From a virus: 22,992 nucleotides of DNA. The notes under the pieces are model-generated. The model ran no database searches, had not been told where the DNA came from, and saw only the letters and a list, made by a program, of their open reading frames with translations. Location of the stretch: IMG/VR virus record IMGVR_UViG_3300018018_000031, positions 1 to 22,992 of that record; one strand, 5' to 3'. The first letter of the stretch is position 1. Every line of letters begins with the position of its first letter. Positions 2,603 to 20,604 of the stretch are shown here, one piece after another. The translations under genes were made by a program, and so were the position numbers.

Positions 2603-5600
2603 TTATAGATTTCCGCTTTGAATTGAAATTGAATAATCGGTATTATGGCTGCCTCCGCCTTCATTCAAAGTCTGTCCGTAAACGCGAGTGGACGCATCCA
2701 CGCCAGATGTATTGTTGCCTGTATTGGTCACAGTAATTGCATCAAAAAGTTCCGACCCAACATTCATCACCTGAGTGGGAGTATATTGATTGACATACTG
2801 GCTGTAGTCTATCAGTTCCTTATTGGCTCGAGTCTGAGCATCTCCGACCGTCGTGATGTTATAATCCACAACAATTGCTTCTCTCGTCGGCTGACCAGCC
2901 ATTAAGGTAGTATTGCGAGCTGTGGCTTGAACGCCAGTGCCATATACTGTCACCTGTGTAACATATTCCTTGTCCGAATTGTCCACCTGCTGATTCCAAA
3001 TCTGTCCGCTGTATAAATAGCCAGAAACATCTGCGGAGGAAAGCAAAATCATCTTCATCCGTCCAAGCAAGTCGGAAAAGAACCAACCATAGATGCTTTG
3101 TATTAGAGTGAACAATGAGTTCTCTGCATCATCTCCTGGATTGAAAGAAAATGACTGCACTGGCTTCCAGAAATAAGGCGAACTGATATCCTTGACTGTA
3201 ACAGTGGAATTGCTGTCACTAGCCGCAAAACCCCAGTAGCCAGTCGTCAAGTTAGCCAGCTGGCTATTGTTGTCATTCCAAGAAGCCACCATCACTCCAT
3301 CAATAAAAGCATACATCCAGCCATCTATCATAGTAATCTGGTACTTGTGATACTGGGTAAGGTCTATATTCAAAGAGCCGAATGCAGGAGGAGATGCGGC
3401 CAAATAATCATCAGCGGCAGAATTCGGGAAGATGTAAGTGTTAGCTCCAACATCAAATCTTTCAAAGCGACAGGCGGTTAAGCCGTTACTGTCCACATAC
3501 TGCCAGATGCGAAAGACATAACTTTTCCAAGGAGCGTAGCCTCCTCCAGTTGGAGTATTGCGAAAATAGAAACATAACCCAAACACCTTATCAGCGCCTG
3601 TAAGTATTGGCGTCACTTTCGCGGTAAACAACACTTCGCCATTGCTAATTTGTTTTGCAGATTCATTATTCATCGCATAACTGCTGGGAGGAATGACTAA
3701 CTTGCGATTCTGGACAGTAAAAGTTCCATAATAAGACGGCAGCGTCAAAAGATCTGTAAACTGATTCTGCGCAATGATATCTGTAATTCCCGCTCGAGCT
3801 GCCAATGATTTCGTAAGAGTAAAGATATTACTAATTGGACCAAATTGTGTGTAGCGGAAATAACTAAAAGGAACACTCACCCTTTTACATCCCAGTGCAA
3901 CCGTCCAAGACTTTTGGAGACTGGCAGTTGCTGCAAAATCTGAAGTCAAATCGATTTCTCCAGACGTATAACTTTTCAGCAAAGTGGCATCATTCCAAAC
4001 ATCCAAAGGATTGCCTGAAAAAAGCGCTGCATCACTATACATAAAATTCCATTTGTAATAATCATACTGTCTTACAAAAAATGCCCGACTGTCACCAGCC
4101 GATGGTCTTGTGATAGCTCCCCAATCTTTCGTTCCTCCATCTATACCAGATGTGATAGCGCCATTGATGCACTTATCAATAGACCATCCATGAGCGGAAT
4201 TCACCGACAATCTTAACCAATTGTTTGAATCAATATAGAATGCATAAATATAGGAATAGTTTGGCGGAGAAATTTGAAGATTATTTCCAGGCGTTCCCGC
4301 GTTGACAACCAAAAGTGAACTTTCGGTCATCTGGAAAGGCATGGCTAAAGTAACGACCATATCGCCTGCTATAACGCTAGTTGTCTCTACGGCATTTCCA
4401 CTTTCTACCCATGTGCCATTGATTTGATTCCAGTTGCTCAAGGTAGTGCCGTCAAATACATCCGCATAGAAAAAAGGTCCGAGCCACTGGAGAGCAAATC
4501 GAGTAATCAAAAGTTTTAACTTTTTAAACCAATCCCGTCCAGCGATGGCTAAGTCATTCTGATTGCCAGAAATCTGTTGAGTCACATCATCAATATAATA
4601 AACATTCCGTGGCACAAGCTCTTGGACACCACTAGCGTTGTAATAACCTTGCCACAGAGCAATCTTGCTGTTGCTTGCTATGGCTGCTGCTCCAGGTTTT
4701 GTCGGACTTGCTCCCACCCACTGGTTGTTCTGATTGGCAACCTGTAAATTGATAGATGATGGCTGGCCTGCAGTTTCCTGTATTGTATAACCGATAACAT
4801 CTGTTGAAATATCAGCTACGATGTTATTGTGGACAAACTGATATATCTGATTGCCGCCGCAAATGTAGTAATAATTGTCTTGCGCTACAAAAGATTGCAG
4901 CTGATTGCTGGCGCTCGGCTCTACAATTTCAGTGCCACTTGCATTTACCATGATTTCAGGATAACTGAAATTCTGACCATCAACCGAATGAATCAATTGA
5001 TAATTCTCGTGAGTTGTGATAGTGACTGAAGTCGCTCCTTGAGCTGAAGGAGAAATAGAATCCACTGTAACAGCCTTTAAAAGGATGTCGATATAATCAT
5101 TTTGCAAAACAGCTCTAGGGAACAGATACTGATTTTGATTGGCATAATTTGCAGAATCTGCAGCAATAATTGCTGTCGGTGGCAGCCAAAGATCGGGAGT
5201 CAAACTGCCTCCAGTGCCAGAAGAGCGTCGTGACAAACCTGTTAGCCATAATGCATAGTTGGGATTTTGAGTGGATGCTTTATTGTTTGGTGTGTCAATT
5301 ATGCTGCGGAATCCGCAGAAGACCATGTAATCAATTCCGTTAATGTAGTAAGAATCAAACGAATGAATCGTCCAGTCTTGGCTATTGACATTTCCTCCCC
5401 AAGTATACGGAGCAAGAATGTTGTAGGACGTGTAAGGAAAAGGTGAAACCGAATACTTAAGATCGTAAGAAGTATAGCCAGAACTCATCGCGCTGCTGTT
5501 GGGACAGAGATATAAAATACCACTTGTCATTGTGCCGCTGACTAAACGAGGCTTCATCAAAGCGAGATATAGATTCAATGTTGCAGCAGAGTTATAACTA

Positions 5601-7063
5601 GCTATCGGTAAATCGGACATCTTATATCCAGCATACGCAGAGTTTTGTAGCGTCCATGTTTGTCCGCTGTCATCTGAACTCCAAATGCACAATCCAAGAT
5701 AATTGCCGAAATAATAGCCTAACGAACCATCAAAATTAGTAAAATAAGCCACATCAATATGGTAGTAGCTGTTGTGCATCTCAGAAACAGCAATCGCCAC
5801 CTGATTAACAGCATAAGCAGACACCACACCGCTATTGGTATCAAGAACTGTATCGCTGTCCCAAGAACCGCTTCCAAGATTGCGTCCTTTGTAAAAATGA
5901 ATATGATTGCTGGCGTCAAATCCTGCGGCTACGATATTGCCATCAGGCGTTGGTGCTGCTGAACCAAAAGAGTATGGCGGTGTGTTTGTAAAGATGTTTG
6001 CAGTCGGCTTGATGGTGTCGTCGATAATTTGTGTGGTAAAATAAGGTCGCACGGTATACTGCTGTTGAGCAGTTTCTAATGTCTGAGTCAACCATTTATA
6101 GCCAGAGACAGACAGTGTTGCAGGTAAATCTTCTTCTTCAATTGCGATACTTGGACTGACACTTGGTGAAATTGACGGAGATAATGAAGGAGAAAGAGAT
6201 GGTGATTTTGAAGCTGAAGGACTTAATGAAGGAGAAACCGAAGGTGAAAGACTTGGTGATTTACTTGGACTTTTACTCGGAGAAATCGAAACACTCGGTG
6301 AAACAGATGGACTAATGCTAGGAGATTTTGAGGCGCTCGGAGAAATAGAAGCACTTGGTGAAACAGATGGACTGATTGATGGAGATTTTGATGGACTAAT
6401 GGAAGGAGATAAACTGGGAGAAACTGAAGGTTCAATAGCTGGAGCAAATGAAACAAGTACTCCAGCCCAATCTTTGTTCCCACCAAAACCATTATTAAAT
6501 GCTATACTCTGAGAACCTGTTCCAACTGTTCCATTGCTGTCTCCTGTCCCATAACCATTAGTGGAGCTGGCTGTTTCTAAAAGATTCGAACCACAGGTCA
6601 TACTATAACCATAATGGGAAGCCGCCACACCAGAGATCCAGCAGTTTGAAGCCACGACTGTCGTAGCTATAGAAAAAGTTCCATCGGGATTGCCATAACT
6701 GCCCTGTTTTACGTTTTGTGAATCGGGAAATCCAGTTTGTAAAACTCCAGTATAAGAAACTGTTCCAGCGTAAACTTCTGTAGAATTAACATTGCCTGGT
6801 GTAATCACCACATTATGAGTGCCAGTGGCAGGAGCAATGAGCCAAAACAGAAAAGCAGAAACATTTCCGTTGCCATTGTCTTCATAAATTAAATTCATTG
6901 CCACACTATTATAAGTGGCAGACATCCCAGCGGCACTAATGTTTATTTCTCCTCCTACTAAAAGTAACAGATCGCTTCCAGTACAAGTATGAGCAATCGT
7001 CAAAGGATTAGCATTGGTGATATCGGTGGCACCGCCTTTATTTTTGTAATCAAATGCTATCAT
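2603..7063 (-). CDS. Giant modular tail tip / receptor-binding protein (1486 residues)
   Basis: This is the largest gene in the window and a mosaic. Residues 1 to about 208 form a beta-sandwich-like module (SDLLLLVGGEINISAAG, ATGTHNVVITPG). About 211-309 is an (SPSx)n low-complexity linker. From about 320, a beta-propeller-like region contains an Asp-box (SSDDSGQTWTL, near residue 464), as in sialidase-type propellers. Further on are concanavalin/LamG-like segments (SNWNQINGTWVESG near 880; YQITMIDGWMYAFIDG near 1244). The last ~170 residues (GWFFSDLLGRMKMILLSSAD, VTQVTVYGTG) resemble phage tail hub/tip proteins. No catalytic residues for a glycosidase are evident. Its place after the tape measure and small tail proteins fits a central tip protein carrying fused adsorption domains. 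The tail role is fairly sure; individual domain calls are inferred from motifs only. Confidence 0.8.
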   Translation of the reverse strand: MIAFDYKNKGGATDITNANPLTIAHTCTGSDLLLLVGGEINISAAGMSATYNSVAMNLIYEDNGNGNVSAFLFWLIAPATGTHNVVITPGNVNSTEVYAGTVSYTGVLQTGFPDSQNVKQGSYGNPDGTFSIATTVVASNCWISGVAASHYGYSMTCGSNLLETASSTNGYGTGDSNGTVGTGSQSIAFNNGFGGNKDWAGVLVSFAPAIEPSVSPSLSPSISPSKSPSISPSVSPSASISPSASKSPSISPSVSPSVSISPSKSPSKSPSLSPSVSPSLSPSASKSPSLSPSLSPSISPSVSPSIAIEEEDLPATLSVSGYKWLTQTLETAQQQYTVRPYFTTQIIDDTIKPTANIFTNTPPYSFGSAAPTPDGNIVAAGFDASNHIHFYKGRNLGSGSWDSDTVLDTNSGVVSAYAVNQVAIAVSEMHNSYYHIDVAYFTNFDGSLGYYFGNYLGLCIWSSDDSGQTWTLQNSAYAGYKMSDLPIASYNSAATLNLYLALMKPRLVSGTMTSGILYLCPNSSAMSSGYTSYDLKYSVSPFPYTSYNILAPYTWGGNVNSQDWTIHSFDSYYINGIDYMVFCGFRSIIDTPNNKASTQNPNYALWLTGLSRRSSGTGGSLTPDLWLPPTAIIAADSANYANQNQYLFPRAVLQNDYIDILLKAVTVDSISPSAQGATSVTITTHENYQLIHSVDGQNFSYPEIMVNASGTEIVEPSASNQLQSFVAQDNYYYICGGNQIYQFVHNNIVADISTDVIGYTIQETAGQPSSINLQVANQNNQWVGASPTKPGAAAIASNSKIALWQGYYNASGVQELVPRNVYYIDDVTQQISGNQNDLAIAGRDWFKKLKLLITRFALQWLGPFFYADVFDGTTLSNWNQINGTWVESGNAVETTSVIAGDMVVTLAMPFQMTESSLLVVNAGTPGNNLQISPPNYSYIYAFYIDSNNWLRLSVNSAHGWSIDKCINGAITSGIDGGTKDWGAITRPSAGDSRAFFVRQYDYYKWNFMYSDAALFSGNPLDVWNDATLLKSYTSGEIDLTSDFAATASLQKSWTVALGCKRVSVPFSYFRYTQFGPISNIFTLTKSLAARAGITDIIAQNQFTDLLTLPSYYGTFTVQNRKLVIPPSSYAMNNESAKQISNGEVLFTAKVTPILTGADKVFGLCFYFRNTPTGGGYAPWKSYVFRIWQYVDSNGLTACRFERFDVGANTYIFPNSAADDYLAASPPAFGSLNIDLTQYHKYQITMIDGWMYAFIDGVMVASWNDNNSQLANLTTGYWGFAASDSNSTVTVKDISSPYFWKPVQSFSFNPGDDAENSLFTLIQSIYGWFFSDLLGRMKMILLSSADVSGYLYSGQIWNQQVDNSDKEYVTQVTVYGTGVQATARNTTLMAGQPTREAIVVDYNITTVGDAQTRANKELIDYSQYVNQYTPTQVMNVGSELFDAITVTNTGNNTSGVDASTRVYGQTLNEGGGSHNTDYSISIQSGNL
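6150..6432 (-). repeat. (SPSx)n repeat tract in tail tip gene
   Basis: About 100 codons encode SPS followed by I, V, L, K or A, with 12-nt periodicity and imperfect 24-nt and longer repeats in DNA. The tract separates the N-terminal beta module from the propeller-like region, so it is likely an extended flexible linker. Two further genes in the window have the same type of tract. Confidence 0.9.
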
Positions 7064-9898: not shown

Positions 9899-10448
9899 AA
9901 TTGTCCCTTAGAAATTCTTTTAATTCCTGCCATTAAATTAAACATTTGTGGATCATCAAATGTCCCGCCTTCCACATCCTTCATAGATTGTCTTTTTGTC
10001 CAATACTCAAAATACACACGAATCTGTCCGAGTGTTAAATTAGAAATCTGTTCTGGTGTCCAGTTGGTTTTGCTAGTTATGATACCGAAGACGTCTCTCC
10101 ACTCGGCGGGTTTGCCAGCGAGTTCTTTTGTTTTAGACTCTTCACCTTCTGCTGGCTCAAAAAACCTAGTTGCTCCAATGTTTTATTCAGATCAATATCG
10201 CTTGCGCCTTGTGAATTATCAAGAACGTAATCTTCAGTAATCGTTGGATCTACCGAATGTAACGCAGTAAAGATGGCAACAGCAAGCAGTTCACCATTAG
10301 TCGCAATCTTTCCAGCTTTACTTAACTCAATGATCTTACGCTGCCACTCGATAATCTGCCGCAAATTAGCTCGTTTAAGACTGTATGTCTTTCCAGCAAA
10401 AACGTAATCGAAACTGGCATTTGTCAGAATTTCACCTTCATTAGGCAT
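9895..10448 (-). CDS. Tail assembly chaperone G-T, -1 frameshift product
   Basis: Downstream of the short chaperone frame lies a -1 frame with no start of its own that is open through the G stop to TGA 9897-9895. Joined at the slippery site it gives 184 residues: 97 from the zero frame, then 87 beginning EPAEGEESKTKEL and including AEWRDVFGIITSKTNW and IRVYFEYWTKRQ. The conserved-looking Trp/aromatic content argues that this is real coding sequence. As known for lambda gpG/gpGT and many siphoviruses, a minority of ribosomes would make the fusion, which binds tape measure protein during tail assembly. The fusion's TGA overlaps the tape measure ATG. The coordinates span the join; the frame change occurs at 10158. 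Confidence 0.8.
10077..10448 (-). CDS. Tail assembly chaperone G (unshifted product)
   Basis: This 123-residue protein begins MPNEGEILTNASFDYVFAGK and continues with helical segments (RQIIEWQRKIIELSK, GELLAVAIFTALHSVDPTI), an alpha-rich layout like tail assembly chaperones. It lies between the major tail protein and the tape measure, where such genes sit. The last 26 codons after the slippery TTTTTTG are read only when ribosomes do not shift. The ATG follows CTCTAGTTT, with no Shine-Dalgarno sequence. Confidence 0.82.
   Translation of the reverse strand: MPNEGEILTNASFDYVFAGKTYSLKRANLRQIIEWQRKIIELSKAGKIATNGELLAVAIFTALHSVDPTITEDYVLDNSQGASDIDLNKTLEQLGFLSQQKVKSLKQKNSLANPPSGETSSVS
10158..10164 (-). 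other. Programmed -1 frameshift slippery heptamer
   Basis: The minus strand reads T TTT TTG in the zero frame (codons GGT TTT TTG), a canonical X-XXY-YYZ site. The -1 frame entered here (GAG CCA GCA...) stays open to the tape measure start. Two nt downstream, a 6-bp inverted repeat (GCCAGC / GCTGGC, about 31 nt apart) may act as a weak stimulatory stem. Confidence 0.82.
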
Positions 10449-10465
10449 AAACTAGAGTTTAATTA

Positions 10466-10939
10466 TTATGCGGTATAAACTTCCACGATATCCAAAGCTT
10501 CAAGCTCCACATCGAACTGTGTGTAATCTTCCATCTTCAGACTGGCTTTGGTGCTCTTGAATGTAACACTTGAGAATTGATACTGAATTTGTTTGGCATT
10601 TCTATCAAACAAGGTAACTACAGGATTCAACACTGTCGGCTGACCATCCAAAGTGACAACGCTGTTTGGTGTTCCAAGAGTAGAAGAACCTAGAGCCATC
10701 ATTTCTACTTCAGGAGCATAAGACTTCATCTGAGCAGTCATAGAAACTTTTTGAGTGTGGCGAACTTTGTCCTGCGGTTTGATAGAGCCCAAAACAAACA
10801 AATCAGTAAGAGTATAACCGACTGTAATCACAACATTTTCCAAATACATAACCCGAGAAGCGCCAAAGTCGAGAGTTCCTGAATTGAATGTCGCTCTGGA
10901 TGTTAAGTTGGAACCTGCACCTGTGAATGCTGCTGGCAT
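10466..10939 (-). CDS. Major tail tube protein
   Basis: This 157-residue beta-rich protein shows an N-terminal Gly/Ala/Ser region (AAFTGAGSNLTSRATFNSG), repeated strand-like segments (VMYLENVVITVGYTLT, VRHTQKVSMTAQMKSYAPE) and an acidic C-terminal strand set (FDVELEALDIVEV). The size, composition and position between tail terminator and chaperones fit the tube subunit that polymerises around the tape measure. The alternating 'sensitive to inserts' loops in the middle (SSTLGTPNSVVTLDGQPT) are typical of the family. The start is supported by AAGGA 9 nt upstream. The identity rests on context and fold pattern, not a sequence signature. Confidence 0.82.
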   Translation of the reverse strand: MPAAFTGAGSNLTSRATFNSGTLDFGASRVMYLENVVITVGYTLTDLFVLGSIKPQDKVRHTQKVSMTAQMKSYAPEVEMMALGSSTLGTPNSVVTLDGQPTVLNPVVTLFDRNAKQIQYQFSSVTFKSTKASLKMEDYTQFDVELEALDIVEVYTA

Positions 10940-10986
10940 AAATTATTTTCCTTTCTTAATTAGATTAGTTATCGACCATTTAAAAA

Positions 10987-11394
10987 TTATTTGATACTCC
11001 ATAATGTAAATGAACACGACCTGTGCCAAACTGCCCTATCAGTCTCAAAAAGATCAACCGCGCCTCTTAAAATCTGCCACCAGATGTGAGCAGAATTCTG
11101 GTCTCCTGAAAGATAGTCCAAATCAGTAAGTATTCGTTCGTAGATATTTTCTATCTCAAGTTGTGAATTTCTAGACCAGATATCAAGTTGAACCATCGTG
11201 TCTCGAGCATTAGTCGGCACAGAGCGAACTGCTTCTGAAACCAATGTTAGGACGACAGACGGATAATTCAAAGTGTTCTGTTTCTCCATAACTATATCCG
11301 CGCGTCCTGTATAGATATTGTTTGCTGGAACAAGAGCTGTTAAAGTAGCATCGGTTGTTAGAACTGAAATAAGTTTTTTGAAGATTTCTAACAT
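10987..11394 (-). CDS. Tail terminator / tail completion protein
   Basis: This 135-residue protein has an N-terminal helix (MLEIFKKLISVLTTDATL), a YTGRADIV strand, YPSVVLTLVSE, VQLDIWSRNSQLEIENIYER and a C-terminal strand set (WHRSCSFTLWSI). The LDIWSR...I..R pattern resembles the gpU/DUF3168-like tail terminators that cap the tube and join it to the head. It directly follows the gp10-like gene, the standard order. The ATG is preceded by TTTAAAAA only. The assignment combines motif resemblance and gene order. Confidence 0.72.
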   Translation of the reverse strand: MLEIFKKLISVLTTDATLTALVPANNIYTGRADIVMEKQNTLNYPSVVLTLVSEAVRSVPTNARDTMVQLDIWSRNSQLEIENIYERILTDLDYLSGDQNSAHIWWQILRGAVDLFETDRAVWHRSCSFTLWSIK

Positions 11395-11397
11395 TTT

Positions 11398-11859
11398 TTA
11401 AAGATTACTCTCTACATGAAGTTTCATCATTCGCTGAATTGCGTCTTTAGTTAAATTCACAGCTGGTCTCATGAATGGTCTAGCTCTCATCTTGGATGTG
11501 CCATATTCTATATAACCTGAATAAGGAACTCCATAAGCTCGAATTTCTCCCTGATAGGACATTAATCCTTTACGAGTAACTTGCTGAGTAATACTGCTCT
11601 GCAATAAACCAGTCTGGACAGGAACACCTGCTTGAGCATTAGGATCTGATACGCGCTTACTTCTGTGCTCTATTTTCATCTGAGCTTTGCTAATGTATGG
11701 TCTTTTTTGATGTGCTATTCGCCAAATCATTTCAGTAGCTCGAGTAATACGTCGTTTTATATTCTTATCATCATTGTCTAATCTATTGCCGATTTTATGA
11801 AGCAAACGATCAAAAGCACTTGCATCTATTTTGAAAGTTTGACCACCTGTTATTGGCAT
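11398..11859 (-). CDS. HK97-gp10-like head-tail/tail component
   Basis: This 153-residue basic protein has the C-terminal signature YGTSKMRARPFMRPA (residues about 118-133), which is diagnostic for the HK97 gp10-like family. Upstream it has VQTGLLQSSIT (the 'tGxLr.Si' motif of the family) and a helical N-terminus (FDRLLHKIGNRLDND). It acts in the neck or tail completion. In typical siphoviruses it follows the head-tail stopper and precedes the terminator, as here, except that the MuF and homing endonuclease genes lie between. The start follows AAAATT with no Shine-Dalgarno sequence. Confidence 0.85.
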   Translation of the reverse strand: MPITGGQTFKIDASAFDRLLHKIGNRLDNDDKNIKRRITRATEMIWRIAHQKRPYISKAQMKIEHRSKRVSDPNAQAGVPVQTGLLQSSITQQVTRKGLMSYQGEIRAYGVPYSGYIEYGTSKMRARPFMRPAVNLTKDAIQRMMKLHVESNL

Positions 11860-11863
11860 AATT

Positions 11864-11881
11864 TTATGAATACGGGATTAT
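11864..11881. repeat. Imperfect direct repeat, downstream side of homing endonuclease
   Basis: The final 18 nt of the endonuclease gene match the final 18 nt of the MuF gene (12396-12413) at 14 positions. Both encode an IPYx-stop ending (KIIPYS and IVIPYE). Confidence 0.6.
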
Positions 11882-12403
11882 TTTATCAATACACTCTTTA
11901 GCTGATTTATTTATTTCATGTTCCCAAAATCTAAAAACTTTAAATCCTTGAAATTCCCAACTTGCAGTTTTTCTTGCATCATTTTCTTGAGCACCTGGTA
12001 AATTATGCCAATAATCTCCATCACATTCTATTATAATTCTGTATTCTTCTAAATAAAAATCTACGCAAAACCCAGAAATAGGAACTTGTTTTTTATAGTT
12101 AATGTTTCTTTTTTTAAGCTCTTCTTCTATAAGTAATTCGGGTTTAGTATTTTTTCTTTTACCTAATGCAGATCTCCAACCAAGATTTCCTTTCATCCAT
12201 TCAGAGCATCTTTTCTTCCATTCTGAACTTCTTTTGCAGCCTAAAGCATATTGATTACCTTTAGCTTTTTCAGACATTTTCTTTCTTGTTTCTTCTGTTC
12301 GTTTAGCTCCTCTTCTTCCAGTTAATGTTCTACTTATTTTAGCTCTGATTTCTTGAGGAATGACATGTCCCTTCTTAAATGCAGTTGTTGGGTGTTTATT
12401 CAT
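11864..12403 (-). CDS. Free-standing homing endonuclease, NUMOD3 plus Vsr-like nuclease
   Basis: This 179-residue protein has basic NUMOD3-type helices at about 8-75 (TGRRGAKRTEETRKKMSEKA), a DNA-binding module of mobile phage nucleases. The C-terminal half has the Vsr/DUF559-like core: KPELLIEEELKKR (E89), a VDFYL strand (D115), IIIECDGDYWHN (E126, D128, H133) and FKVFRFWEHEI. This is the fold of EDxHD-type homing enzymes. It nicks or cuts a cognate DNA site to spread its own gene. The DNA looks more AT-rich than its neighbours and it splits the head and neck genes. The start overlaps the MuF stop by 8 nt. The family is clear; the target site is unknown. Confidence 0.88.
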   Translation of the reverse strand: MNKHPTTAFKKGHVIPQEIRAKISRTLTGRRGAKRTEETRKKMSEKAKGNQYALGCKRSSEWKKRCSEWMKGNLGWRSALGKRKNTKPELLIEEELKKRNINYKKQVPISGFCVDFYLEEYRIIIECDGDYWHNLPGAQENDARKTASWEFQGFKVFRFWEHEINKSAKECIDKIIPYS

Positions 12404-12413
12404 ATGGGATTAC
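12396..12413. repeat. Imperfect direct repeat, upstream side of homing endonuclease
   Basis: This is the partner of 11864-11881. It contains the last five codons and stop of the MuF gene; the endonuclease start codon lies inside it. Confidence 0.6.
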
Positions 12414-12809
12414 GATGCAAAAACAATTGGGATGCCAAGGAACAAAACTACCATATCCACTTTTTTCTATTTCTTTCTGTGTAAAAATTCTTCTTCCATT
12501 ATCACTTTTTTCTCTACATCCTTTGCAAGCATTTGGTGATAAAATGATCTTATACTTACTAATTCCTATATCTTCACCAGCTTGTGCTACCACTTTAGTG
12601 TCTTGAGCTTTCACCTCAGTCCAGTAGATGCGTTCTGCTTTATATCTTTCAGACAACTTTCCGTTGAACTTCTGCAATGCAGCAATAATCTTTGAAGAAG
12701 GAAGATTTGTCTTTTGCAGATTCTTAATATACTCTTGTATTTCAGAAAGTTCTGACTTTGTTAAAGCTTCTCCAGCTTGTCCTTTCCAGAATTGTTTGAA
12801 TAAGTTCAT
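12396..12809 (-). CDS. Short MuF-like minor head protein
   Basis: This 137-residue protein has the C-terminal phage Mu F-like signature: CKGC (C95, C98) then PWHPNCFC (H126, C129, C131), the ligand set typical of MuF minor head proteins. The usual protein is 250 residues or more, so this is a reduced version lacking most of the N-terminal domain. Residues 4-9 are FKQFWK, a motif shared with two other proteins of this operon. The ATG overlaps the stop of the zinc-finger gene (ATGA). It presumably sits in the capsid near the portal. MuF proteins normally follow the portal gene; here no portal is visible. Confidence 0.78.
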   Translation of the reverse strand: MNLFKQFWKGQAGEALTKSELSEIQEYIKNLQKTNLPSSKIIAALQKFNGKLSERYKAERIYWTEVKAQDTKVVAQAGEDIGISKYKIILSPNACKGCREKSDNGRRIFTQKEIEKSGYGSFVPWHPNCFCIVIPYE

Positions 12810-12946
12810 ATCTTTCTGTGAGCGAGATAATGTTTTTTGAATTCATCTTTTCTATAAAACCATTCACCACATTTCTTACAATGAAACTCAGATTTTCCGC
12901 CGATTGTTAAACTTTGTCTTTTACGGAGATAATTGTTCTTACTCAT
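12806..12946 (-). CDS. C2H2 zinc-finger miniprotein
   Basis: This 46-residue protein has a basic N-terminus (MSKNNYLRKRQSL) and a textbook classical zinc finger: C-x2-C-x12-H-x3-H, with the aromatic and hydrophobic core residues in place (FHCKKCGEWFYRKDEFKKH then YLAH). Both ends are ATGA overlaps with neighbouring genes (12943-12946 and 12806-12809), strong evidence that it is translated. Classical C2H2 fingers are rare in phage structural operons. It could bind DNA or RNA, or act as a small zinc-stabilised head assembly factor. The zinc ligands are seen; the function is not known. Confidence 0.78.
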   Translation of the reverse strand: MSKNNYLRKRQSLTIGGKSEFHCKKCGEWFYRKDEFKKHYLAHRKI

Positions 12947-13320
12947 GGAAGTTGCAGTAAAGCTTCAAAATGGTCTATTACCTGTCCAAAAACATAAGCC
13001 GGTACAATTGAAGTAATCGTGTATTCAATACCATCAGAGGTAAAAATATGGTCTTCCGCCTGCAGGTCATAACCATTGTTATAATACATCACACCACTGG
13101 GCTGTATGCGCTCTCCTTCGCTGGCGAACCTAATCAACTTGGAACTAAAGGCCAATTTGACTGGCATTTCATAATAAATTGGATTCCATCCTTGCCCTTC
13201 GGTTGGTGCACCGTAAGTAGGGTTGTTTAAGGCATCCCGCCCCTGGCTGATGCGGCGGATTACGACGACATTCGTATTCAGAAGAGATAAAGGTATCATA
13301 TTATTGGTATTTTGATTCAC
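12943..13320 (-). CDS. Head-tail stopper / adaptor (SPP1 gp16-like)
   Basis: This 125-residue beta-rich protein has the head-tail joining pattern: an N-terminal strand with VVVIRRISQ, a middle loop, then DHIFTSDGIEYTITSIVPA and a closing GQVIDHFEALLQL. This matches the 'gD.i...g.ey.I..i......ihh.ea.l' ending of the family. It would close the connector after packaging and bind the tail. The GTG start at 13320 has GAGGT 7 nt upstream; an ATG at 13299 (MIPLSLLN) is the alternative. The stop overlaps the zinc-finger ATG. Confidence 0.75.
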   Translation of the reverse strand: MNQNTNNMIPLSLLNTNVVVIRRISQGRDALNNPTYGAPTEGQGWNPIYYEMPVKLAFSSKLIRFASEGERIQPSGVMYYNNGYDLQAEDHIFTSDGIEYTITSIVPAYVFGQVIDHFEALLQLP

Positions 13321-13353
13321 TCAGATGACCTCAGAGACACTTAAATTAAAAGT

Positions 13354-13369
13354 ATGATATAACTATCAT
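13354..13369. promoter_or_regulatory. 16-bp palindrome ATGATA-N4-TATCAT, copy 2
   Basis: The sequence ATGATATAACTATCAT sits in the 55-nt gap between the connector stop (13376) and the stopper start. It shares both 6-nt arms with the copy at 8029-8044 and, read in the opposite orientation, three of the four central bases. A protein-binding site is suggested by the symmetry and by both copies lying in gaps. Confidence 0.45.
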
Positions 13370-13375
13370 TCAACT

Positions 13376-14341
13376 TTAGACGAACCCTGGGAGTTGATTA
13401 GAATAAGGACCAAGCAGTTGTTTAACTCTTTCATACACACTATTTTCTTTACCGCTGCCAAAACTTACATTAAAAGTTTGCATTCCAAGACTTGCAGCGC
13501 CAAGAGGATTCTGAGTAGCTTGACCAATCATATAAGCTGTCAATAAAATACAAGCCTCTTTAATTTCTGAAGGCAAACTCTCATTTGTTGTAAAATCTGC
13601 GGTGATAGCTCCTGTCGGAGTTGATAAGAATGTAATTTTTCCGTTAACATAATCTACTGTGTAAAGTGTTGTAGCTTGTAATACTCCAGCAGCATAAACA
13701 TTCAAAGTCTGGCTCGGTGCCCACAGGCGATTACCGACTGGTGCTTGATACTCAAGTGTCGTTCCAATTTGTGTCAGAGTTTGAGCAGTTAGAGGAGTCC
13801 CGTAACCAAATGTATAATTCGTCCATAAAACTCCCAAAGGAATGCGGTCGAGAATAGCAGCAGGAATAGGAGCTCCTACACCTGTGCCTGCTGAAGACAG
13901 CATTGGGACAATCTTATAATAGCCTTTGTCATAAAAATCCTGCAGATAACCAGTAGCTGAGACATCTACTTGAATAAACCATTTCAAAACTTGAATCCAA
14001 ATGCTGTTAATTTTAGTGTAAGGACGATTGGCAAGCACGACAGTAACAAGCTGTGGATTATATGGTCTTACTGAAAACTTTGTTTTCTGTTCATCAATTG
14101 TCTGTGTATCAAACCATCTAGCACAGTAGCGATTGATCCAAGAGCTAGCTTGCAGAATCTTATTCTGAAGTTCACCATTCCAATACTGCGGCGTCTGTGA
14201 AGTAATTCCTAATCCAGTAGCCTCAAATGAATTAATAAAATCGTCACGAGTAATATAAGGATTATCCACGGCTATTTTCATAGCCGCGCCTGTTGGTGTG
14301 TTTGTGCCTGTTTGAATCCAACCGCTTTTTAAATCTGTCAT
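13376..14341 (-). CDS. Head-tail connector (gp6-like) with insertion
   Basis: In this 321-residue protein the N-terminal third (ITRDDFINSFEATG, LQNKILQASSWINRY, then KTKFSVRPYNPQLVTVV) and the C-terminal helices (SEIKEACILLTAYMIGQ, ENSVYERVKQLLGPY) fit gp6-type connectors that dock under the portal. Those are usually about 100 residues. Here the middle (residues ~130-260) carries extra beta segments (TLNVYAAGVLQATTLYTVDY, GKITFLSTPTGAITADF) resembling a small Ig-like insert. The start is coupled by ATGA to the upstream 68-residue gene. The fold assignment is from helix pattern and position. Confidence 0.72.
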   Translation of the reverse strand: MTDLKSGWIQTGTNTPTGAAMKIAVDNPYITRDDFINSFEATGLGITSQTPQYWNGELQNKILQASSWINRYCARWFDTQTIDEQKTKFSVRPYNPQLVTVVLANRPYTKINSIWIQVLKWFIQVDVSATGYLQDFYDKGYYKIVPMLSSAGTGVGAPIPAAILDRIPLGVLWTNYTFGYGTPLTAQTLTQIGTTLEYQAPVGNRLWAPSQTLNVYAAGVLQATTLYTVDYVNGKITFLSTPTGAITADFTTNESLPSEIKEACILLTAYMIGQATQNPLGAASLGMQTFNVSFGSGKENSVYERVKQLLGPYSNQLPGFV

Positions 14342-14544
14342 AAATTATCTATTAAGTTTTCTACTTCTTGTTTCATTTCCCATTTACTATCACCATTCAA
14401 ATTTTTGAAAGGTCTATCATCTATAGAAACTTGACCAGATCTTACATTATAATGATGGTCTTTGTAATGACCTGAAAAATCACCTTGGTCTAATTTACCA
14501 GCTAAAGATTTATTTCTCCAAAATTCTTTGAATTGATTTTTCAT
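14338..14544 (-). CDS. 68-residue FKxFWR-motif protein
   Basis: This small basic/acidic protein begins MKNQFKEFWRNKSLAGKL. The FKEFWR motif near the N-terminus matches FKQFWK in the MuF-like and 339-residue proteins. The rest is charged, with a GHYKDHHYNVRSG turn and a final helix (KWEMKQEVENLIDNL). Both ends are ATGA overlaps with the glycosyltransferase and the connector. I do not recognise a family. By its motif it may be targeted to the same partner as the other head proteins. Confidence 0.72.
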   Translation of the reverse strand: MKNQFKEFWRNKSLAGKLDQGDFSGHYKDHHYNVRSGQVSIDDRPFKNLNGDSKWEMKQEVENLIDNL

Positions 14545-15737
14545 AAATGACTGTTTAATGCTTGATGAAACATTTTAATTTTGTCCTTCCACAGCCAGTT
14601 CTGTCTGGCATATTCTGCAGCAACTTGACCTTTTTGCTTAACTTCATCCCGATGACTGTAAGCGTATCTCATCAATTGTCGCAAATGTTGTTTATTCGGC
14701 TCAGCCCAATCACCACAGTATTCTTTGTAAACTTGTTCTGAAAACTTCTTAGCAGGAACCATTTTATAATCAATCAACCAACCAACATCTTTATTCATAT
14801 ACTCGCAAGGTCCTGACCAGTTCGTAACTATCACCGGAACACCTGTTGCCATCGCTTCTAATGCTGGAAGTCCGAAGCCTTCTCCGCGAGTGGGAAACAC
14901 AAAACAATCTATTTTTTGAAAGAAACCACTTAATAATTCTTCAGGAGTGACAGGTGTTATCTGGACTTCAATTCGTTTGTTTTTAACATCATACGAATAA
15001 GTATTGTAAGAAGTCTTGCAAATCAGTTTAACATCACGTTCTCTTGGAAATTCTTCCTGGAAAGCCTCAACTAATAATTCAGTCCCTTTGCGGTAGCTGA
15101 GCGCTCCCATTGTGCCGAATGTAAATGTCTTGCTTTCTAGTCTTTCTAAAGGATAAAATCTTTCAGGATCTATAGCCCAATGTATAAGCTCAATCGGAAC
15201 TGTTATTCCACTATCTCTGAATGCTTGGATATTCTGATTGCAGCAAGTAAGTAATACATCTAGGCTGTTGATTCTGTGCACCCATGAGTTCGGAATCTGT
15301 GTTGTTTCCCAAGGGACTATCGCTATGTTCTTTTCAAAAGGGCTTTCTAACCATCTTTCTCTCGGTTGGTCGTGCCATATCATCGCTCCAGCTTGATTTA
15401 ATGGCCTATTCTGACTAGAAAAAATCACCCTGTTGTTTACGCCATAAGTTCTACCAGTATAGGCGATTTGCAGGGTGTTGGAACTTTCTTTAAGCAAATA
15501 ATATGAGACATTACCGAAGCCACTCTGCAAATCTATATCGCCGTAAAAGTTAATGAATTTCTGGTTTTTCCACAGTAACGGATCATAAGGAACAAAATCG
15601 TATTTTGCAATAACGGAATTCAAGCGTGAAAGTCTGAAGACATCTGAAAATTCCAGATCTAACTCTTCGCCCGTATCATAGAACTTTTCTTTATACAGAA
15701 TTGATGAGTATTTTTCTCTCTTAAGCAGGAATTTCAT
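14541..15737 (-). CDS. GT4-type glycosyltransferase
   Basis: This 398-residue protein has GT-B fold features. A Gly-loop (SGFGNVSYYL, near 72-80) lies in the first Rossmann half. GTMGALSYRKGTELLVEAF (near 208-226) begins the donor-binding half, and FVFPTRGEGFGLPALEAM (279-296) carries the E-x7-E pair E286 and E294. It transfers a sugar from a nucleotide-activated donor. The first ~60 residues are an extra N-terminal segment. It lies directly after the capsid gene and is coupled by ATGA to the next head gene, so its likely target is the capsid or another virion protein, or host surface sugars. The family is certain; the substrate is unknown. Confidence 0.88.
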   Translation of the reverse strand: MKFLLKREKYSSILYKEKFYDTGEELDLEFSDVFRLSRLNSVIAKYDFVPYDPLLWKNQKFINFYGDIDLQSGFGNVSYYLLKESSNTLQIAYTGRTYGVNNRVIFSSQNRPLNQAGAMIWHDQPRERWLESPFEKNIAIVPWETTQIPNSWVHRINSLDVLLTCCNQNIQAFRDSGITVPIELIHWAIDPERFYPLERLESKTFTFGTMGALSYRKGTELLVEAFQEEFPRERDVKLICKTSYNTYSYDVKNKRIEVQITPVTPEELLSGFFQKIDCFVFPTRGEGFGLPALEAMATGVPVIVTNWSGPCEYMNKDVGWLIDYKMVPAKKFSEQVYKEYCGDWAEPNKQHLRQLMRYAYSHRDEVKQKGQVAAEYARQNWLWKDKIKMFHQALNSHL

Positions 15738-15743
15738 AGACAG

Positions 15744-15808
15744 GCTCTCTAGGAGTCAGGCGGCTTGTGAGAGCAATACCGTCCGACTCCACTGCTATGT
15801 ATCGCAGT
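15744..15808 (-). promoter_or_regulatory. Structured RNA element between capsid and glycosyltransferase genes
   Basis: In the minus-strand RNA a small hairpin (ACTGC...GCAGT, 15808-15791) comes first. Next is a 12-position stem (15790-15779 with 15763-15752, one mismatch, one G-U). A 6-nt loop segment GCTCTC (15774-15769) is perfectly complementary to GAGAGC (15749-15744), just upstream of the ATG. These last two stems are pseudoknot-like or mutually exclusive. No U run is present, so it is not a simple terminator. It may control expression of the glycosyltransferase relative to the capsid. Confidence 0.5.
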
Positions 15809-15831
15809 CTCGTGCTAATTAAGAATCAAAA

Positions 15832-16878
15832 TCAGGTCTGAGAATCTTCAACATTGGTAAGCATGCCTTCCCACGGTTCAGCTTTAACAGCTAGAACCAG
15901 ATACTGATTCAGATAAAACCGAATCGTATCAGCAATCTTAGCAAGTTCAGTTCTTCCTAACGGCACTAAGTCAACCATCTGATTCCCTTGGTCATCGTGA
16001 CGAAGGAAATATACAGATGAAAGACCAGCAGTCGTAGCAGAAGAAGAACCAGCTTCATTAGACGGATAAGGCAGCGCTGGATTACAGAAGAAATCCCCAA
16101 TGACTGGAATAGAACCTAGCGGTGACATATAAGAAGTCACATGATCGCCAGCTCCCAATACATTGTTGACGCTATCAACATTGATGAAGTAGCGGGCTTG
16201 CGGCGAGATGATAGCATTGACTTGAGTTTGAAGACCAAATCCAAGATAAATACCATCAATCTTATTGCCACCTTGCAAGCGGATCTGCCTGATAATCTTA
16301 TCAAAGGCAGGAATGACTACACCTGAAGCCGTCAGCGCTGCACCAGCATTGCTGACTGCATTCGTAGTGAGTTGAACATCGAACCCATCATAAGACAAGG
16401 TATTCGTACCGCTATCGCCGTGAAAATCAGCCCATTCTTCTGCCTGGATAATCCTACGTAGAGCAGCTTCAGCAATTTCCGCTTCAATATCGATGTAGGA
16501 ACGTCCACTGGCAATCATAGGACCAGTAATGACAGCTGTAGTACCCATGTACTTGTAAGCTGCTGTCTTTTGGACATAGGCTGGGTCTGTTTCAGGAGGC
16601 AAATTGCCGTCCGCATAAAACAGATTCACCAACGCCATTGGACCATCGGACAAAAGTCCGAGTCTGGTTCTTTGGTTCCACAAGTGAGCCAGACCTTCGC
16701 CCTTAATGCGAGTCACACGATCACGGAAAGGTGTAAGCCTATCGGACAGAACAACGATAGCGCTTTCCAAATCCTGACGGGACAATAACGAATTAGGGAC
16801 AACAGTTCCAGCAAAGGAAATATCCACAGATTTCTCAAAGCGTTCTAACGCTTTTTCCAAAGAATCTAATACTTTCAT
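15832..16878 (-). CDS. Major capsid protein, HK97-fold type
   Basis: This 348-residue protein begins with a short helical segment (1-20, SLEKALERFEKS). The N-arm-like region follows (VVPNSLLSRQDLESAIVVL, about 26-44, then RLTPFRDRVTRIKGEG). Later come AEEWADFHGDSGT and the P-domain/A-domain pattern (GIYLGFGLQTQVNAI, GSIPVIGDFFCNP). The size and order after the protease are typical. It forms the icosahedral shell. The N-terminus is far shorter than the HK97 delta domain, so any scaffold function probably resides in the protease tail. The ATG is preceded by AACACAAAT with no Shine-Dalgarno sequence, surprising for a highly expressed protein. Confidence 0.9.
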   Translation of the reverse strand: MKVLDSLEKALERFEKSVDISFAGTVVPNSLLSRQDLESAIVVLSDRLTPFRDRVTRIKGEGLAHLWNQRTRLGLLSDGPMALVNLFYADGNLPPETDPAYVQKTAAYKYMGTTAVITGPMIASGRSYIDIEAEIAEAALRRIIQAEEWADFHGDSGTNTLSYDGFDVQLTTNAVSNAGAALTASGVVIPAFDKIIRQIRLQGGNKIDGIYLGFGLQTQVNAIISPQARYFINVDSVNNVLGAGDHVTSYMSPLGSIPVIGDFFCNPALPYPSNEAGSSSATTAGLSSVYFLRHDDQGNQMVDLVPLGRTELAKIADTIRFYLNQYLVLAVKAEPWEGMLTNVEDSQT

Positions 16879-16915
16879 ATTTGTGTTATTGGTTAATTAA
16901 ATCCCTTCAACTTAT

Positions 16916-16956
16916 CCTTACATATTAGCTCTTTCGAGTTCTCTACTTATGTAAGG
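16916..16956 (-). promoter_or_regulatory. Stem-loop in the capsid mRNA leader
   Basis: A perfect 9-bp stem (CCTTACATA / TATGTAAGG) encloses an internal loop and a small CTC-GAAA-GAG hairpin in the minus-strand RNA. It lies in the 115-nt gap between the protease stop and the capsid ATG, about 38 nt upstream of the start. There is no U run, so it is probably a processing or stability element rather than a terminator. Confidence 0.5.
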
Positions 16957-16993
16957 CGAGGGGGTGTCGACCTTTGTTACCGCACCCGTCGGG

Positions 16994-18637
16994 TTATTCT
17001 CTTGTGGCTTGAGCCACGCTTGAATAGTTTGCTTTATACTGACTCTTAAAGTCTTTCGGAGTTTTGTCATCAGACTTTTCAATCTTTTCTGGAACTGCCA
17101 TCAAAGGATAGCGATGTCCGTCTTTCGTGACCATATAAGGAACTCCCATTGCCATAGACTTCTTTTGTCCAGGAATCTTTATCATCTTCTGGATCTCTTC
17201 CTGTAATCCAGCATTTTTTTGTAAGTTGTCAATAAACAATTTCTCAAAGCCTAGAATGCGCTTACCGCTCTTTTCCATACGATCTACAAGAGCTTCCATC
17301 GTCTTAGTCATCGTAGCAACTAACACATCTAACGGATGAGCTTTCGTAGTTTCTTCATCTTTTTTGTCATCTTCTTCGGCTTTTTTCGTTTCATCTTCAG
17401 TTTCGTCTTCAGCTTTGACAGTCTCTTCGTCTTTCTTATCATCTTCTTCGGCTTTCGTAGTTTCTTCATCTTTTTTGTCATCTTCAGCTTTATTCATACG
17501 CTTCTGCAATGTATTCAACATCTTGATAGAACGTTCAACTGTTTCTAAATCATAAGTATCATCTTTAGTTTCAGCTTTTTCTTTCGTCTCATCGACAGTC
17601 TCTTCTGCTTTAGTTGTTTCGTCGTCTTTCTTATCATCTTCAGCTTTAGAAGCAACCAATCCTTCCTCTGCAGGCTTTACTTCATCTGGATTCACCTGCT
17701 CTTTAGGAGGAGTCTCCATGTCTTTGGCTGTCGGACTTTCATCTTCTGGTTTTTTCTTATCAGGATTAGCTTGGTCTTTTGCATCACCATCCATAGCTTT
17801 AGTTAACATAGCACCAATACTTCCGAAACCTTTCGCCATAAGGCCACCAAGATCTTTCAGTGCCTTATTCAAAGAATTGAATTCACTACGAGTTACCGCT
17901 TTTTCGGTTTCTGTAGTTTCATCTTTCTTATCACCTTCTACTTTTTTCATAGAATTATTATTTTTATTAATTTCTGGCGATTCGACTCTTCGCCATGCGT
18001 CGTCAGGTACTGACTTCGCAAATGCTTGTAAATAGTCTAATTGAGAATTTTCAAATAGAAATTCCTTACGTAAAGACATATTTTCACTGTACTGCTCAGC
18101 GTCTTTAACATCTTTCGCTATACTCTTAGTAATCAACCACGAATCATAATTAGCTGGACGAGGTGTAACAGAAACTTCTTGCAGAGCAACATTGTAGAAA
18201 GTCTTTACCATTCCGCCGATTGATTCTGAGAATTCCTTGACTGCTCGCTTGACGAATCCGCCAACCGACAGTCCCATTTTTGTTCCACTTTTGATAGCGT
18301 GATGAAATACTTTAGAAATCGGATGATTCTTATCCAATCTCGCCTGCATATGAAGCTGTTTGCGTTCATCCACCCAACCTTTGAACACTTTGCCGAAAAT
18401 AGCTTCGTCGCCTTTTTGATGTTCAACCCTGAGAGGCACACCGTCTTTGTTGATTGAAGCAGCCATTGCTGTCAAAGCATCTTCAGACATTCGCTCATTG
18501 TCGTGGTCGATATTGGTAGTAGAAGCTATTCCTTCAATGATCCAATCTTTATCATCATCGACAGCAACAGCCTTTTCAATCCAGAACTTGAAAGGAAATT
18601 CTCCATTTGCCTCTAATTTGATTATTTCATCGCTCAT
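16994..18637 (-). CDS. Prohead serine protease fused to an acidic/lysine-rich scaffold-like tail
   Basis: This is a 547-residue protein. Residues ~10-170 match the HK97-type prohead protease: VEHQ with His73, MGLSVGG with Ser124, and LQEVSVTPRPAN (about 152-163), the conserved E-V-S...PA segment. The usual enzyme is about 200 residues. The remaining 350 residues are helical and charged, with four near copies of KAEDDKKDEETTKAEE, then a helical segment (LDVLVATMTKTMEALVDRM) and a C-terminal DFKSQYKANY. This looks like a protease-scaffold fusion that co-assembles with the capsid and digests itself. It lies immediately upstream of the capsid gene. The leader is AATTT only. Confidence 0.88.
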   Translation of the reverse strand: MSDEIIKLEANGEFPFKFWIEKAVAVDDDKDWIIEGIASTTNIDHDNERMSEDALTAMAASINKDGVPLRVEHQKGDEAIFGKVFKGWVDERKQLHMQARLDKNHPISKVFHHAIKSGTKMGLSVGGFVKRAVKEFSESIGGMVKTFYNVALQEVSVTPRPANYDSWLITKSIAKDVKDAEQYSENMSLRKEFLFENSQLDYLQAFAKSVPDDAWRRVESPEINKNNNSMKKVEGDKKDETTETEKAVTRSEFNSLNKALKDLGGLMAKGFGSIGAMLTKAMDGDAKDQANPDKKKPEDESPTAKDMETPPKEQVNPDEVKPAEEGLVASKAEDDKKDDETTKAEETVDETKEKAETKDDTYDLETVERSIKMLNTLQKRMNKAEDDKKDEETTKAEEDDKKDEETVKAEDETEDETKKAEEDDKKDEETTKAHPLDVLVATMTKTMEALVDRMEKSGKRILGFEKLFIDNLQKNAGLQEEIQKMIKIPGQKKSMAMGVPYMVTKDGHRYPLMAVPEKIEKSDDKTPKDFKSQYKANYSSVAQATRE

Positions 18638-18904: not shown

Positions 18905-19501
18905 TTAGGTTTTTGCTCTGTGGGAATGAACCCAAGTTTTTACACCAGTAACTTGACCTCGTATTTCAGACAAAATTGTATCATAAGCACTTACAGTAAG
19001 AATTTTGCCAGTGCTTAAAGTTACTGCATAACTAAGATAGCCATAGCCATTGTCTGAACCAGCACCTACATTGGTGATGACGTAAGTTTGGCCGTAATAG
19101 TTGATTTTATCTCCAGTTGTAATGCTCAATGAAAATGGCGCTGGTATTGATGCGCTAGGACTGGGACTTACACTTGGTGAATGACTTGGGCTATGCGAAG
19201 GACTAAGACTAGGACTAAGACTAGGGCTGAGACTCGGCGAGAGACTTGGAGACAACGATGCTGAAGGACTAACACTAGGACTTAAGCTAGCACTTGGCGA
19301 GACGCTTGGACTGAGACTGGGACTTAGACTGGTACTTGGCGAGACGCTTGGGCTAAGACTGGGACTTAATGATGGACTAAGGCTCGGTGAAAGACTGGGA
19401 CTAAGACTTGGTGAAAGACTAGGACTCAGGCTAGGTGATTTACTAGGAGAAATACTCGGAGACAAGCTCGGAGATATGCTAGGAGATGCAGATGAAGCCA
19501 T
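18905..19501 (-). CDS. SPS-repeat stalk with C-terminal beta domain
   Basis: In this 198-residue protein residues 4 to about 118 are an (SPSx)n stalk. Residues ~119-198 (SIPAPFSLSITTGDK, SYAVTLSTG, SAYDTILS, TGVKTWVHS) form a beta domain homologous to the neighbouring 81-residue protein. The layout is a thin extended stalk with a small head. It could decorate the capsid or act as a fibre. There is no signal peptide or membrane anchor. The ATG follows TTATAATTGT with no Shine-Dalgarno sequence. The SPS tract resembles those in the tail tip and in the gene at the right edge. Confidence 0.78.
   Translation of the reverse strand: MASSASPSISPSLSPSISPSKSPSLSPSLSPSLSPSLSPSLSPSLSPSLSPSVSPSTSLSPSLSPSVSPSASLSPSVSPSASLSPSLSPSLSPSLSPSLSPSHSPSHSPSVSPSPSASIPAPFSLSITTGDKINYYGQTYVITNVGAGSDNGYGYLSYAVTLSTGKILTVSAYDTILSEIRGQVTGVKTWVHSHRAKT
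19150..19490 (-). repeat. (SPSx)n repeat tract, second copy
   Basis: About 113 codons with 12-nt periodicity encode SPS followed by L, V, I, K, H or A. It is more L-rich than the tract in the tail tip gene. Confidence 0.88.
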
Positions 19502-19520: not shown

Positions 19521-19607
19521 TTAAGATTTTTCATTTGAGCTGCGACCTGTTTCAGCCCAAGTTTGTTTAAAAGATTTATTTATTTTATTTATTCTCTCCT
19601 GTTCCAT
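19521..19607 (-). CDS. Short ORF or frameshifted extension carrying another SFKQxW motif
   Basis: The 28-codon ORF starts at ATG 19607 and encodes MEQERINKINKSFKQTWAET and then GRSSNEKS. Its SFKQTW repeats the motif of the overlapping 339-residue protein, whose stop is at 19585, in a different frame (+1). A 1-nt skip in the AATAAATAAAATAAATAAA run would join the two, adding another motif copy. Either a separate peptide, a programmed shift, or an old frameshift mutation would explain it. Confidence 0.4.
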   Translation of the reverse strand: MEQERINKINKSFKQTWAETGRSSNEKS

Positions 19608-20604
19608 AAGGAGCAACAATCTTTCTACCAACATCTTGATAATTTTCATCTGTTTCAGTATTTTCATCTTTCCAGTATTGTTTAAAAGATTTCTTAGTTC
19701 CATTCTGTCTCACTTGCAAAGTGGCTTTCTGGCGTTTCAGCTGGATAGCTTTGATGTTATCAACCAATGATTTCTTTTCTTCTTCTGTTTCAACATCTTC
19801 AGCTTTTGCAGCAGCAGTTTGGAGTTGTTTACCTGTTTGCTCCACCTGACCTTTCATAATCTTAATATCTTTATATCCCATCGCTTCAACAATAGAAGCA
19901 TAAGCTTCAGCATCTATATGATTTCCGAAGATTGCGCACCTTTGAGCTCCATTACTGTCATAGTACCAAACAGCGAAATCGTTAAGATCGGTATAATTTT
20001 TTGCTGTAGTAACTTGTCTACGAGCCTCTTCCTCTCGTAATCTTTTTGCCTCTCTTGCTTCATCTCTATCTGCTTGATCATGTGAAGCATCTTTCCAAAA
20101 ATCTTTGAAAGATTTAGTAGTTTTTTTAGCTAAATTGTCAATCCATGTACGAGCATCTCTAAGAGAACTGAATTCACCTGCCTCAGGATGTGGAACGACA
20201 TAAAATGCATCAATTGGTCGATATGGACCGCCAAAGCCTCCTTCGTTCAACTGAGTAATTGAAAGTCCTTTGTAATGCTCAACTAGAACTTCTTCTTGAC
20301 TCATTCCTTTTTTTAAAGATTTTCTAGTTTCTCCTTCTAAATCCTGTCTACTTAGTAAAGTATTCGGAATCGGACCAGCTTCAGCAATTCCAAGTTTCTG
20401 CATGTAATACTTAATTTTATTAGCAAAATCATCATCTGACATTGATTTGTCGATACTTTTCATTGCAGCTGTGCATATTGCGTATGCTGAATCGCCTTTT
20501 CCACTCGCCTTGACATCAGCAACACAGCGATCCCATTTTTCAGAATGCTGAGAATCACCTGGTTTCTCTACTAAAGTTTTCCAAAATTGTTTGAAATTGC
20601 TCAT
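19585..20604 (-). CDS. Modular protein with repeated FKxFWK motifs and a capsid N-arm copy
   Basis: This 339-residue protein has FKQFWK at 4-9. A Cys-containing module (KWDRCVADVKASGKGDSAYA, C27 and C44) spans about 20-50, and GPIPNTLLSRQDLEGE at 77-92 nearly repeats the capsid protein's residues 28-38. A FYVVPHPEAGEFSSL module follows (134-148). SFKDFWKD is at 165-172, then a charged helix, an FAVWYYDSNGAQR module (about 210-222), and SFKQYWKD at 306-313. It lies just upstream of the stalk proteins, protease and capsid. I infer an internal head or assembly protein with several docking motifs. No enzyme motif is evident. A promoter-like element lies just upstream. Confidence 0.72.
   Translation of the reverse strand: MSNFKQFWKTLVEKPGDSQHSEKWDRCVADVKASGKGDSAYAICTAAMKSIDKSMSDDDFANKIKYYMQKLGIAEAGPIPNTLLSRQDLEGETRKSLKKGMSQEEVLVEHYKGLSITQLNEGGFGGPYRPIDAFYVVPHPEAGEFSSLRDARTWIDNLAKKTTKSFKDFWKDASHDQADRDEAREAKRLREEEARRQVTTAKNYTDLNDFAVWYYDSNGAQRCAIFGNHIDAEAYASIVEAMGYKDIKIMKGQVEQTGKQLQTAAAKAEDVETEEEKKSLVDNIKAIQLKRQKATLQVRQNGTKKSFKQYWKDENTETDENYQDVGRKIVAPYGTGENK

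Follow-up and report, generated by a model that had tools for sequence, protein, structure and literature searches.

A 22,992-nucleotide stretch of virus record IMGVR_UViG_3300018018_000031 in IMG/VR (positions 1 to 22,992; hereafter the window), which covers 23 kb of an uncultivated tailed phage, carries within its head operon a small open reading frame (ORF) that encodes a complete classical C2H2 zinc finger. The reading toward which we lean, with a confidence only a little better than even, is that the gene makes up a mobile one-gene cassette, translationally coupled, whose product is a single-finger DNA-binding protein, and that the cassette has landed in the head operon here. The ORF and its parts are as follows.

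12806..12946, minus strand: C2H2 finger ORF, 46 amino acids, supported by its sequence, by homologues of 57% identity in two related phages and by purifying selection
12887..12946, minus strand: basic N-terminal arm, residues 1-20 (MSKNNYLRKRQSLTIGGKSE), delimited by the three-phage alignment
12818..12886, minus strand: finger domain proper, residues 21-43, supported by its Pfam placement, by the identity of the ligands and of R32-K33-D34-E35 across the three phages, and by the predicted strands and helix
12878-12880, 12869-12871, 12830-12832 and 12818-12820, minus strand: codons of the putative zinc ligands C23, C26, H39 and H43, respectively

Read from 12946 down to 12806, the ORF yields the protein MSKNNYLRKRQSLTIGGKSEFHCKKCGEWFYRKDEFKKHYLAHRKI, which has an isoelectric point of 10 and contains 13 Lys/Arg versus 4 Asp/Glu over its 46 residues. 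The finger has the pattern F-x-C-x2-C-x3-F-x5-F-x2-H-x3-H, with a ligand spacing of C23-x2-C26-x12-H39-x3-H43, and it shows both the C-x2-4-C-x12-H-x3-5-H arrangement and the hydrophobic core by which a classical C2H2 finger is recognized. The core positions (F21, F30, and F36) are all aromatic, F36 occupying a site that is usually Leu in classical fingers, and helix positions -1, 2, 3, and 6 are R32, D34, E35, and K38. In its six frames, the window contains a single C-x2-C-x12-H-x3-H versus 0.005 expected from shuffled windows, and the motif together with the core was obtained in none of 2 million shuffles of the protein. Because shuffling of either the window or the protein practically never yields the motif, a chance origin is excluded.

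Pfam zf-C2H2_4 matches the protein over nearly the full model with an E of 0.0019 and 19.2 bits (curated cut-off 27), zf-C2H2 matches with an E of 0.0034 and 18.2 bits (cut-off 25.2), and the homologue in the relative G002, described below, scores 22 bits; since the scores lie under the curated cut-offs, the window protein is called a finger by its motif and is not filed as a Pfam member. A phmmer search of PDB sequences retrieved genuine C2H2 arrays, with a best E of 1.5e-11 that is summed over many fingers. An AlphaFold2 model, built from an alignment of three sequences only, forms strands at residues 6-10 and 19-23, followed by a short bridge (29-30) and a helix (33-45), with a pLDDT of 88 across residues 21-40 and a pTM of 0.52, so that the predicted elements seem to fall where they are expected for a C2H2 fold. 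Membership in the Ros/MucR family was considered and rejected, given the spacing of 12 and 3 in a protein of 46 residues versus the C-x2-C-x9-H-x4-H of a 58-residue domain (PMC9779718). A Pfam scan of the finger protein found no endonuclease domain.

Two homologues of the finger (E 6e-17 and 3e-15), both 57% identical to it, were found in the whole records of relatives, designated G002 and G005.

G002 41967-42101, plus strand: finger homologue in a ~62-kb relative, well downstream of the head genes
G005 19703-19840, minus strand: finger homologue in a ~62-kb relative, well downstream of the head genes

The ligands, the core, and helix positions -1, 1, 2, and 3 (R, K, D, and E) are invariant in all three fingers, and position 6 varies (K, S, and T). 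The invariance of these four residues implies that the putative base-reading face is conserved, not the zinc site alone. Within the arm, MSK, Y6, R8, K9, S12, L13, G16, G17, and S19 are also invariant. The first-pass annotation of the window had called this ORF a classical C2H2 finger, and the motif, the chance test, and the presence of every ligand in the homologues bear it out.

In both relatives, the finger gene lies in the early region, between an exonuclease gene and a gene for a protein with a tail like that of single-strand-binding (SSB) proteins. The ATG of the G002 finger overlaps the stop of a 376-aa exonuclease gene whose product has Cas4-domain and RecE-like PHROG matches (E 6e-8), and in G005 a 78-aa ORF sits between the exonuclease gene and the finger. 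The next large gene in each case encodes a protein of 273-274 residues that ends in ...DVDSIPF, an acidic tail that appears to resemble the acidic tip of SSB proteins; the label "SSB-like" reflects this acidic ...IPF tail and a beta-rich forecast, the AlphaFold2 model of the 274-aa protein having a pLDDT of 33. A gene for a DnaD-like helicase loader follows.

Other searches for carriers added none to this pair. Among 80 exonuclease-bearing viral loci screened, only the same two relatives have the finger, and a degenerate DNA pattern (C..C...F[YF]R.DE...H...H) run against all IMG/VR contigs returned only these two. A three-sequence profile gave no match in 11 further head-module relatives and 3 exonuclease relatives, in a search that lacked a positive control of its own, and tblastn with the window finger and with the G002 homologue against 50,697 phage records found nothing credible (best E 10 and 6). 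A scan of genome contigs retrieved only an unrelated, secreted-looking protein from a metagenome-assembled genome of the Eubacteriales (L027:4371-5315); it has 314 residues, a signal-peptide-like N-terminus, and three near-identical VQCEICGEWFEAGNEFRNHQC repeats that are C2HC-like fingers.

The pattern of substitution indicates that the gene is used. Between G002 and G005, the proportion of synonymous differences (pS) in the finger gene is 0.48 and that of nonsynonymous differences (pN) is 0.12; between the window and these two, pS is saturated and pN is 0.27-0.28. Third codon positions account for 25 of 54 and 28 of 54 substitutions relative to the window gene, and for 14 of 25 between G002 and G005. 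Because synonymous changes far exceed nonsynonymous ones, the sequences argue for a translated gene that selection maintains; its translation had been thought very likely from the start, and the homologues and purifying selection now support that view. G002 and G005 are only 79% identical in the DNA of the finger versus 92-97% in the flanking genes tested, and a different small gene adjoins it in each. From these two features, it follows that the finger block is either exchanged more freely than its surroundings or evolving faster.

In all three phages, the finger starts with ATGAG[TC], which overlaps the TGA of an upstream gene, and that gene differs: the exonuclease in G002, the 78-aa ORF in G005, and the head-tail stopper in the window. 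Here the gene is bounded by ATGA overlaps at both ends, as had been noticed earlier, its ATG overlapping the TGA of the stopper ORF and its TGA overlapping the ATG of a gene for a MuF-like minor head protein. The predicted place between these two genes is likewise upheld, the MuF-like protein matching a PHROG minor head protein family with an E of 1e-11. The genes next to the finger are listed here.

12943..13320, minus strand: head-tail stopper/adaptor gene, upstream of the finger; phrog_793 head-tail adaptor, E 1.4e-4; kept in about 20 relatives
12396..12809, minus strand: MuF-like minor head protein gene, downstream of the finger, product starting MNLFKQFWK; phrog_115 minor head protein, E 1e-11; tblastn matches to 124 phage records
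11864..12403, minus strand: putative homing endonuclease gene with NUMOD3 and DUF559/Vsr-type domains, at the MuF/neck junction; DUF559 E 3.1e-16, NUMOD3 E 0.0063; phrog_559 HNH endonuclease and phrog_3339 homing endonuclease

The slot between stopper and MuF was compared in 17 distinct related viral contigs that keep both the stopper gene and the MuF gene after it. None of the 17 has the finger there. The slot holds no gene at all in five (L006, L009, L011, L143, and L147), is taken up by an extended MuF N-terminus in three (L004, L008, and L016), contains a putative homing endonuclease in five (L005, L015/L146, L139, L148, and L151; Pfam scans covered those of L005 and L015, and sequence similarity served to name the others), and carries other, unrelated genes in four (L002, L014, L140, and L149). 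Because its occupants vary in this way, the slot is an insertion hotspot, and the endonuclease at 11864..12403, to which endonucleases in the slot of other phages are related, is a further sign of one in the surrounding stretch. The position of the finger in the head operon is a one-off, probably a landing in this hotspot, rather than a conserved feature of the head-tail junction. In L005 (2267-4278) and L012 (562-3613), the match to the major head protein gene is fragmented, and putative homing-endonuclease sequence separates the fragments, as would result if an intron or an endonuclease had inserted.

Elsewhere, the window encodes a prohead protease, the major head protein, a glycosyltransferase, the adaptor, stopper, and MuF-like proteins, neck and tail proteins, and an M23 endopeptidase; because the phage is tailed and encodes this endopeptidase, its host is probably a bacterium. 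The stretch from 10000 to 17000 resembles no annotated phage record at the DNA level. Relatives of the window are present in IMG/VR, and three of the first found are ~61-62 kb long. Most start codons in the window are preceded by A/T-rich sequence with no clear Shine-Dalgarno site, which may hint at a host with translation independent of such sites; the lack of one before the finger is thus uninformative, since most other genes of the window lack one too. Long SPSxSPS repeats are present in three minus-strand ORFs, at 22180-22947, 18905-19501, and 2603-7063, the last encoding a probable tail protein of 1486 residues.

The MuF protein of this phage group starts with FKxFWK or a near variant. 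In its strict form, the motif occurs twice in the six frames of three ~61-kb relatives versus 0.0 times in shuffles, both times in a MuF gene (G002 and G005). F-K-x-[FY]-W-K or a near variant is found at the N-terminus of the window MuF protein (12396-12809, minus strand) and also begins several small, unrelated head-region proteins; further occurrences of this type are the following.

14338-14544, minus strand, window: 68-aa ORF
19585-20604, minus strand, window: 339-aa ORF, three copies of the motif
L014:5024-5776: 250-aa ORF
L014:5646-5996: 116-aa ORF
L015:5705-5947: ORF
L016:5201-5389: 62-aa ORF

At a guess, the motif could be a signal or tag for incorporation into the head. It is not present in the finger protein. 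The 339-aa protein, which has no Pfam or PHROG match, shares the stretch IPNTLLSRQDLE with the N-terminal part of the major head protein (15832-16878, minus strand; VPNSLLSRQDLE). The 250-aa protein, which occupies the slot in L014 and has the MuF-type N-terminal motif, has no Pfam match and contains a YHSTSADSKKIQSQGLKP stretch that we take to recall ADP-ribosyltransferase-like domains.

Among proteins studied experimentally, AFV1p06 of Acidianus filamentous virus 1 is the nearest precedent. This 59-residue protein has one finger, binds zinc and, in gel shifts, DNA, and has been proposed to be a transcription regulator (PMC3541406). It and its fusellovirus homologues share with the window protein the design of a small viral protein with one classical-type finger and extensions; however, AFV1p06 comes from an archaeal virus and has Glu for His as its fourth ligand, whereas in the window protein, which belongs to a tailed phage, all four C2H2 ligands are present; the comparison is one of protein design. 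Where a protein has few fingers, as in the case of GAGA, extensions are used to contact the DNA (PMC3541406), and the window protein resembles such eukaryotic domains in combining one C2H2 finger with a flanking extension, although GAGA-type domains are parts of large regulators and no homology is claimed. The known prokaryotic C2H2 family, Ros/MucR (C-x2-C-x9-H-x4-H in a 58-residue domain; PMC9779718), would be alike in its C2H2 zinc coordination and DNA binding, and differs from the 46-residue window protein with its spacing of x12 and x3. Finally, Ea8.5 of phage lambda is a small zinc-finger protein that is encoded in the exo-xis region beside the recombination exonuclease and affects phage promoters (PMC7093339); it is a homeodomain/zinc-finger hybrid, likened to the window finger by description and not by sequence.

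Taken together, these observations suggest how the cassette might work. The single beta-beta-alpha finger would bind zinc and place its Arg-Lys-Asp-Glu helix tip into the major groove of DNA, and the basic N-terminal arm would add further contacts, as in other single-finger proteins. The family appears to be small and phage-specific. Its home in the relatives is an early operon for recombination/replication, with genes for the exonuclease, the finger, and the SSB-like protein, in which the finger would most plausibly act as a transcription regulator or a DNA-binding accessory. Through its ATGAG, the gene would couple its translation to the TGA of whichever gene precedes it; in the window, it would thus be cotranslated with genes of the head operon without being a part of the head. 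It should be noted that several points weigh against this model. There are three finger sequences in all, two of them from closely related phages, and single fingers are able to bind protein or RNA. A fold search of the PDB gave nothing significant (best E 0.56), a result that is uninformative because 46 residues are too short. One 60.8-kb relative, G008, lacks a finger, its exonuclease and SSB-like genes being separated by two other small ORFs, so that an early role of the finger is not essential. In addition, the window is 23 kb of a genome that is probably near 61 kb, and both relocation and duplication of the gene would fit.

The first-pass annotation had proposed a nucleic-acid- or protein-binding helper in head completion. 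Nucleic-acid binding stands as the best reading of the sequence, but the proposed role in the head is not supported. A finger with DNA or the Cys/His-bearing MuF protein as its binding partner while head and tail are joined would account for the tight overlaps with stopper and MuF, and cotranslation with late genes would be expected. However, absence of the ORF from relatives that keep its neighbors had been named as the outcome that would tell against this proposal, and it is absent from all 17, five of which have no gene at all in its place; furthermore, its homologues sit in an early DNA-recombination region, and the FKxFWK motif that MuF shares with other head-region proteins is missing from it. 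All this makes such a helper quite improbable. That the finger is instead internal head cargo, synthesized late, packaged, and delivered along with the DNA for immediate action on that of phage or host, is improbable as well, if slightly less so: late synthesis of a DNA-binding protein would pay off mainly in the following infection, and the slot occupants of L014, L015, and L149 are small proteins that start, like MuF, with an FKxFWK-like motif and might be cargo, but the finger itself has no such motif, no packaging signal is known, and its homologues are in the early region.

A partner in the early operon that binds protein and modulates the exonuclease, the SSB-like protein, or a host nuclease without reading DNA is unlikely, yet deserves some weight. 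Small phage proteins often inhibit host enzymes, and in the relatives the finger lies between the exonuclease and SSB-like genes; the strong net positive charge and the invariant R-K-D-E at the base-reading positions speak against it, as do G008, which has both of these proteins and no finger, and the window, where the finger is away from both. Since homing endonucleases often occupy the slot, and the window has one just downstream, the ORF might be taken for a chance frame or a decaying fragment, such as the remnant of an inserted endonuclease. Full-length homologues under purifying selection and a motif far above chance make this very improbable, and the remnant in particular was rejected, as no endonuclease in the loci examined carries the window finger. 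The preferred reading of a mobile DNA-binding cassette can also be extended to a sequence-specific finger that serves as an early regulator in some lineages and, when placed next to MuF, is made late, carried in the virion, and active at the start of the next infection, but we regard this extension as very doubtful.

Classical C2H2 fingers have been described as practically absent from bacteria (PMC3541406), and a complete, selected one in a lineage of tailed phages widens the range of single-finger viral proteins. The case also illustrates that the neighbors of a gene can mislead: the informative context of this finger is the early recombination operon of the relatives, not the head operon in which it is found here.
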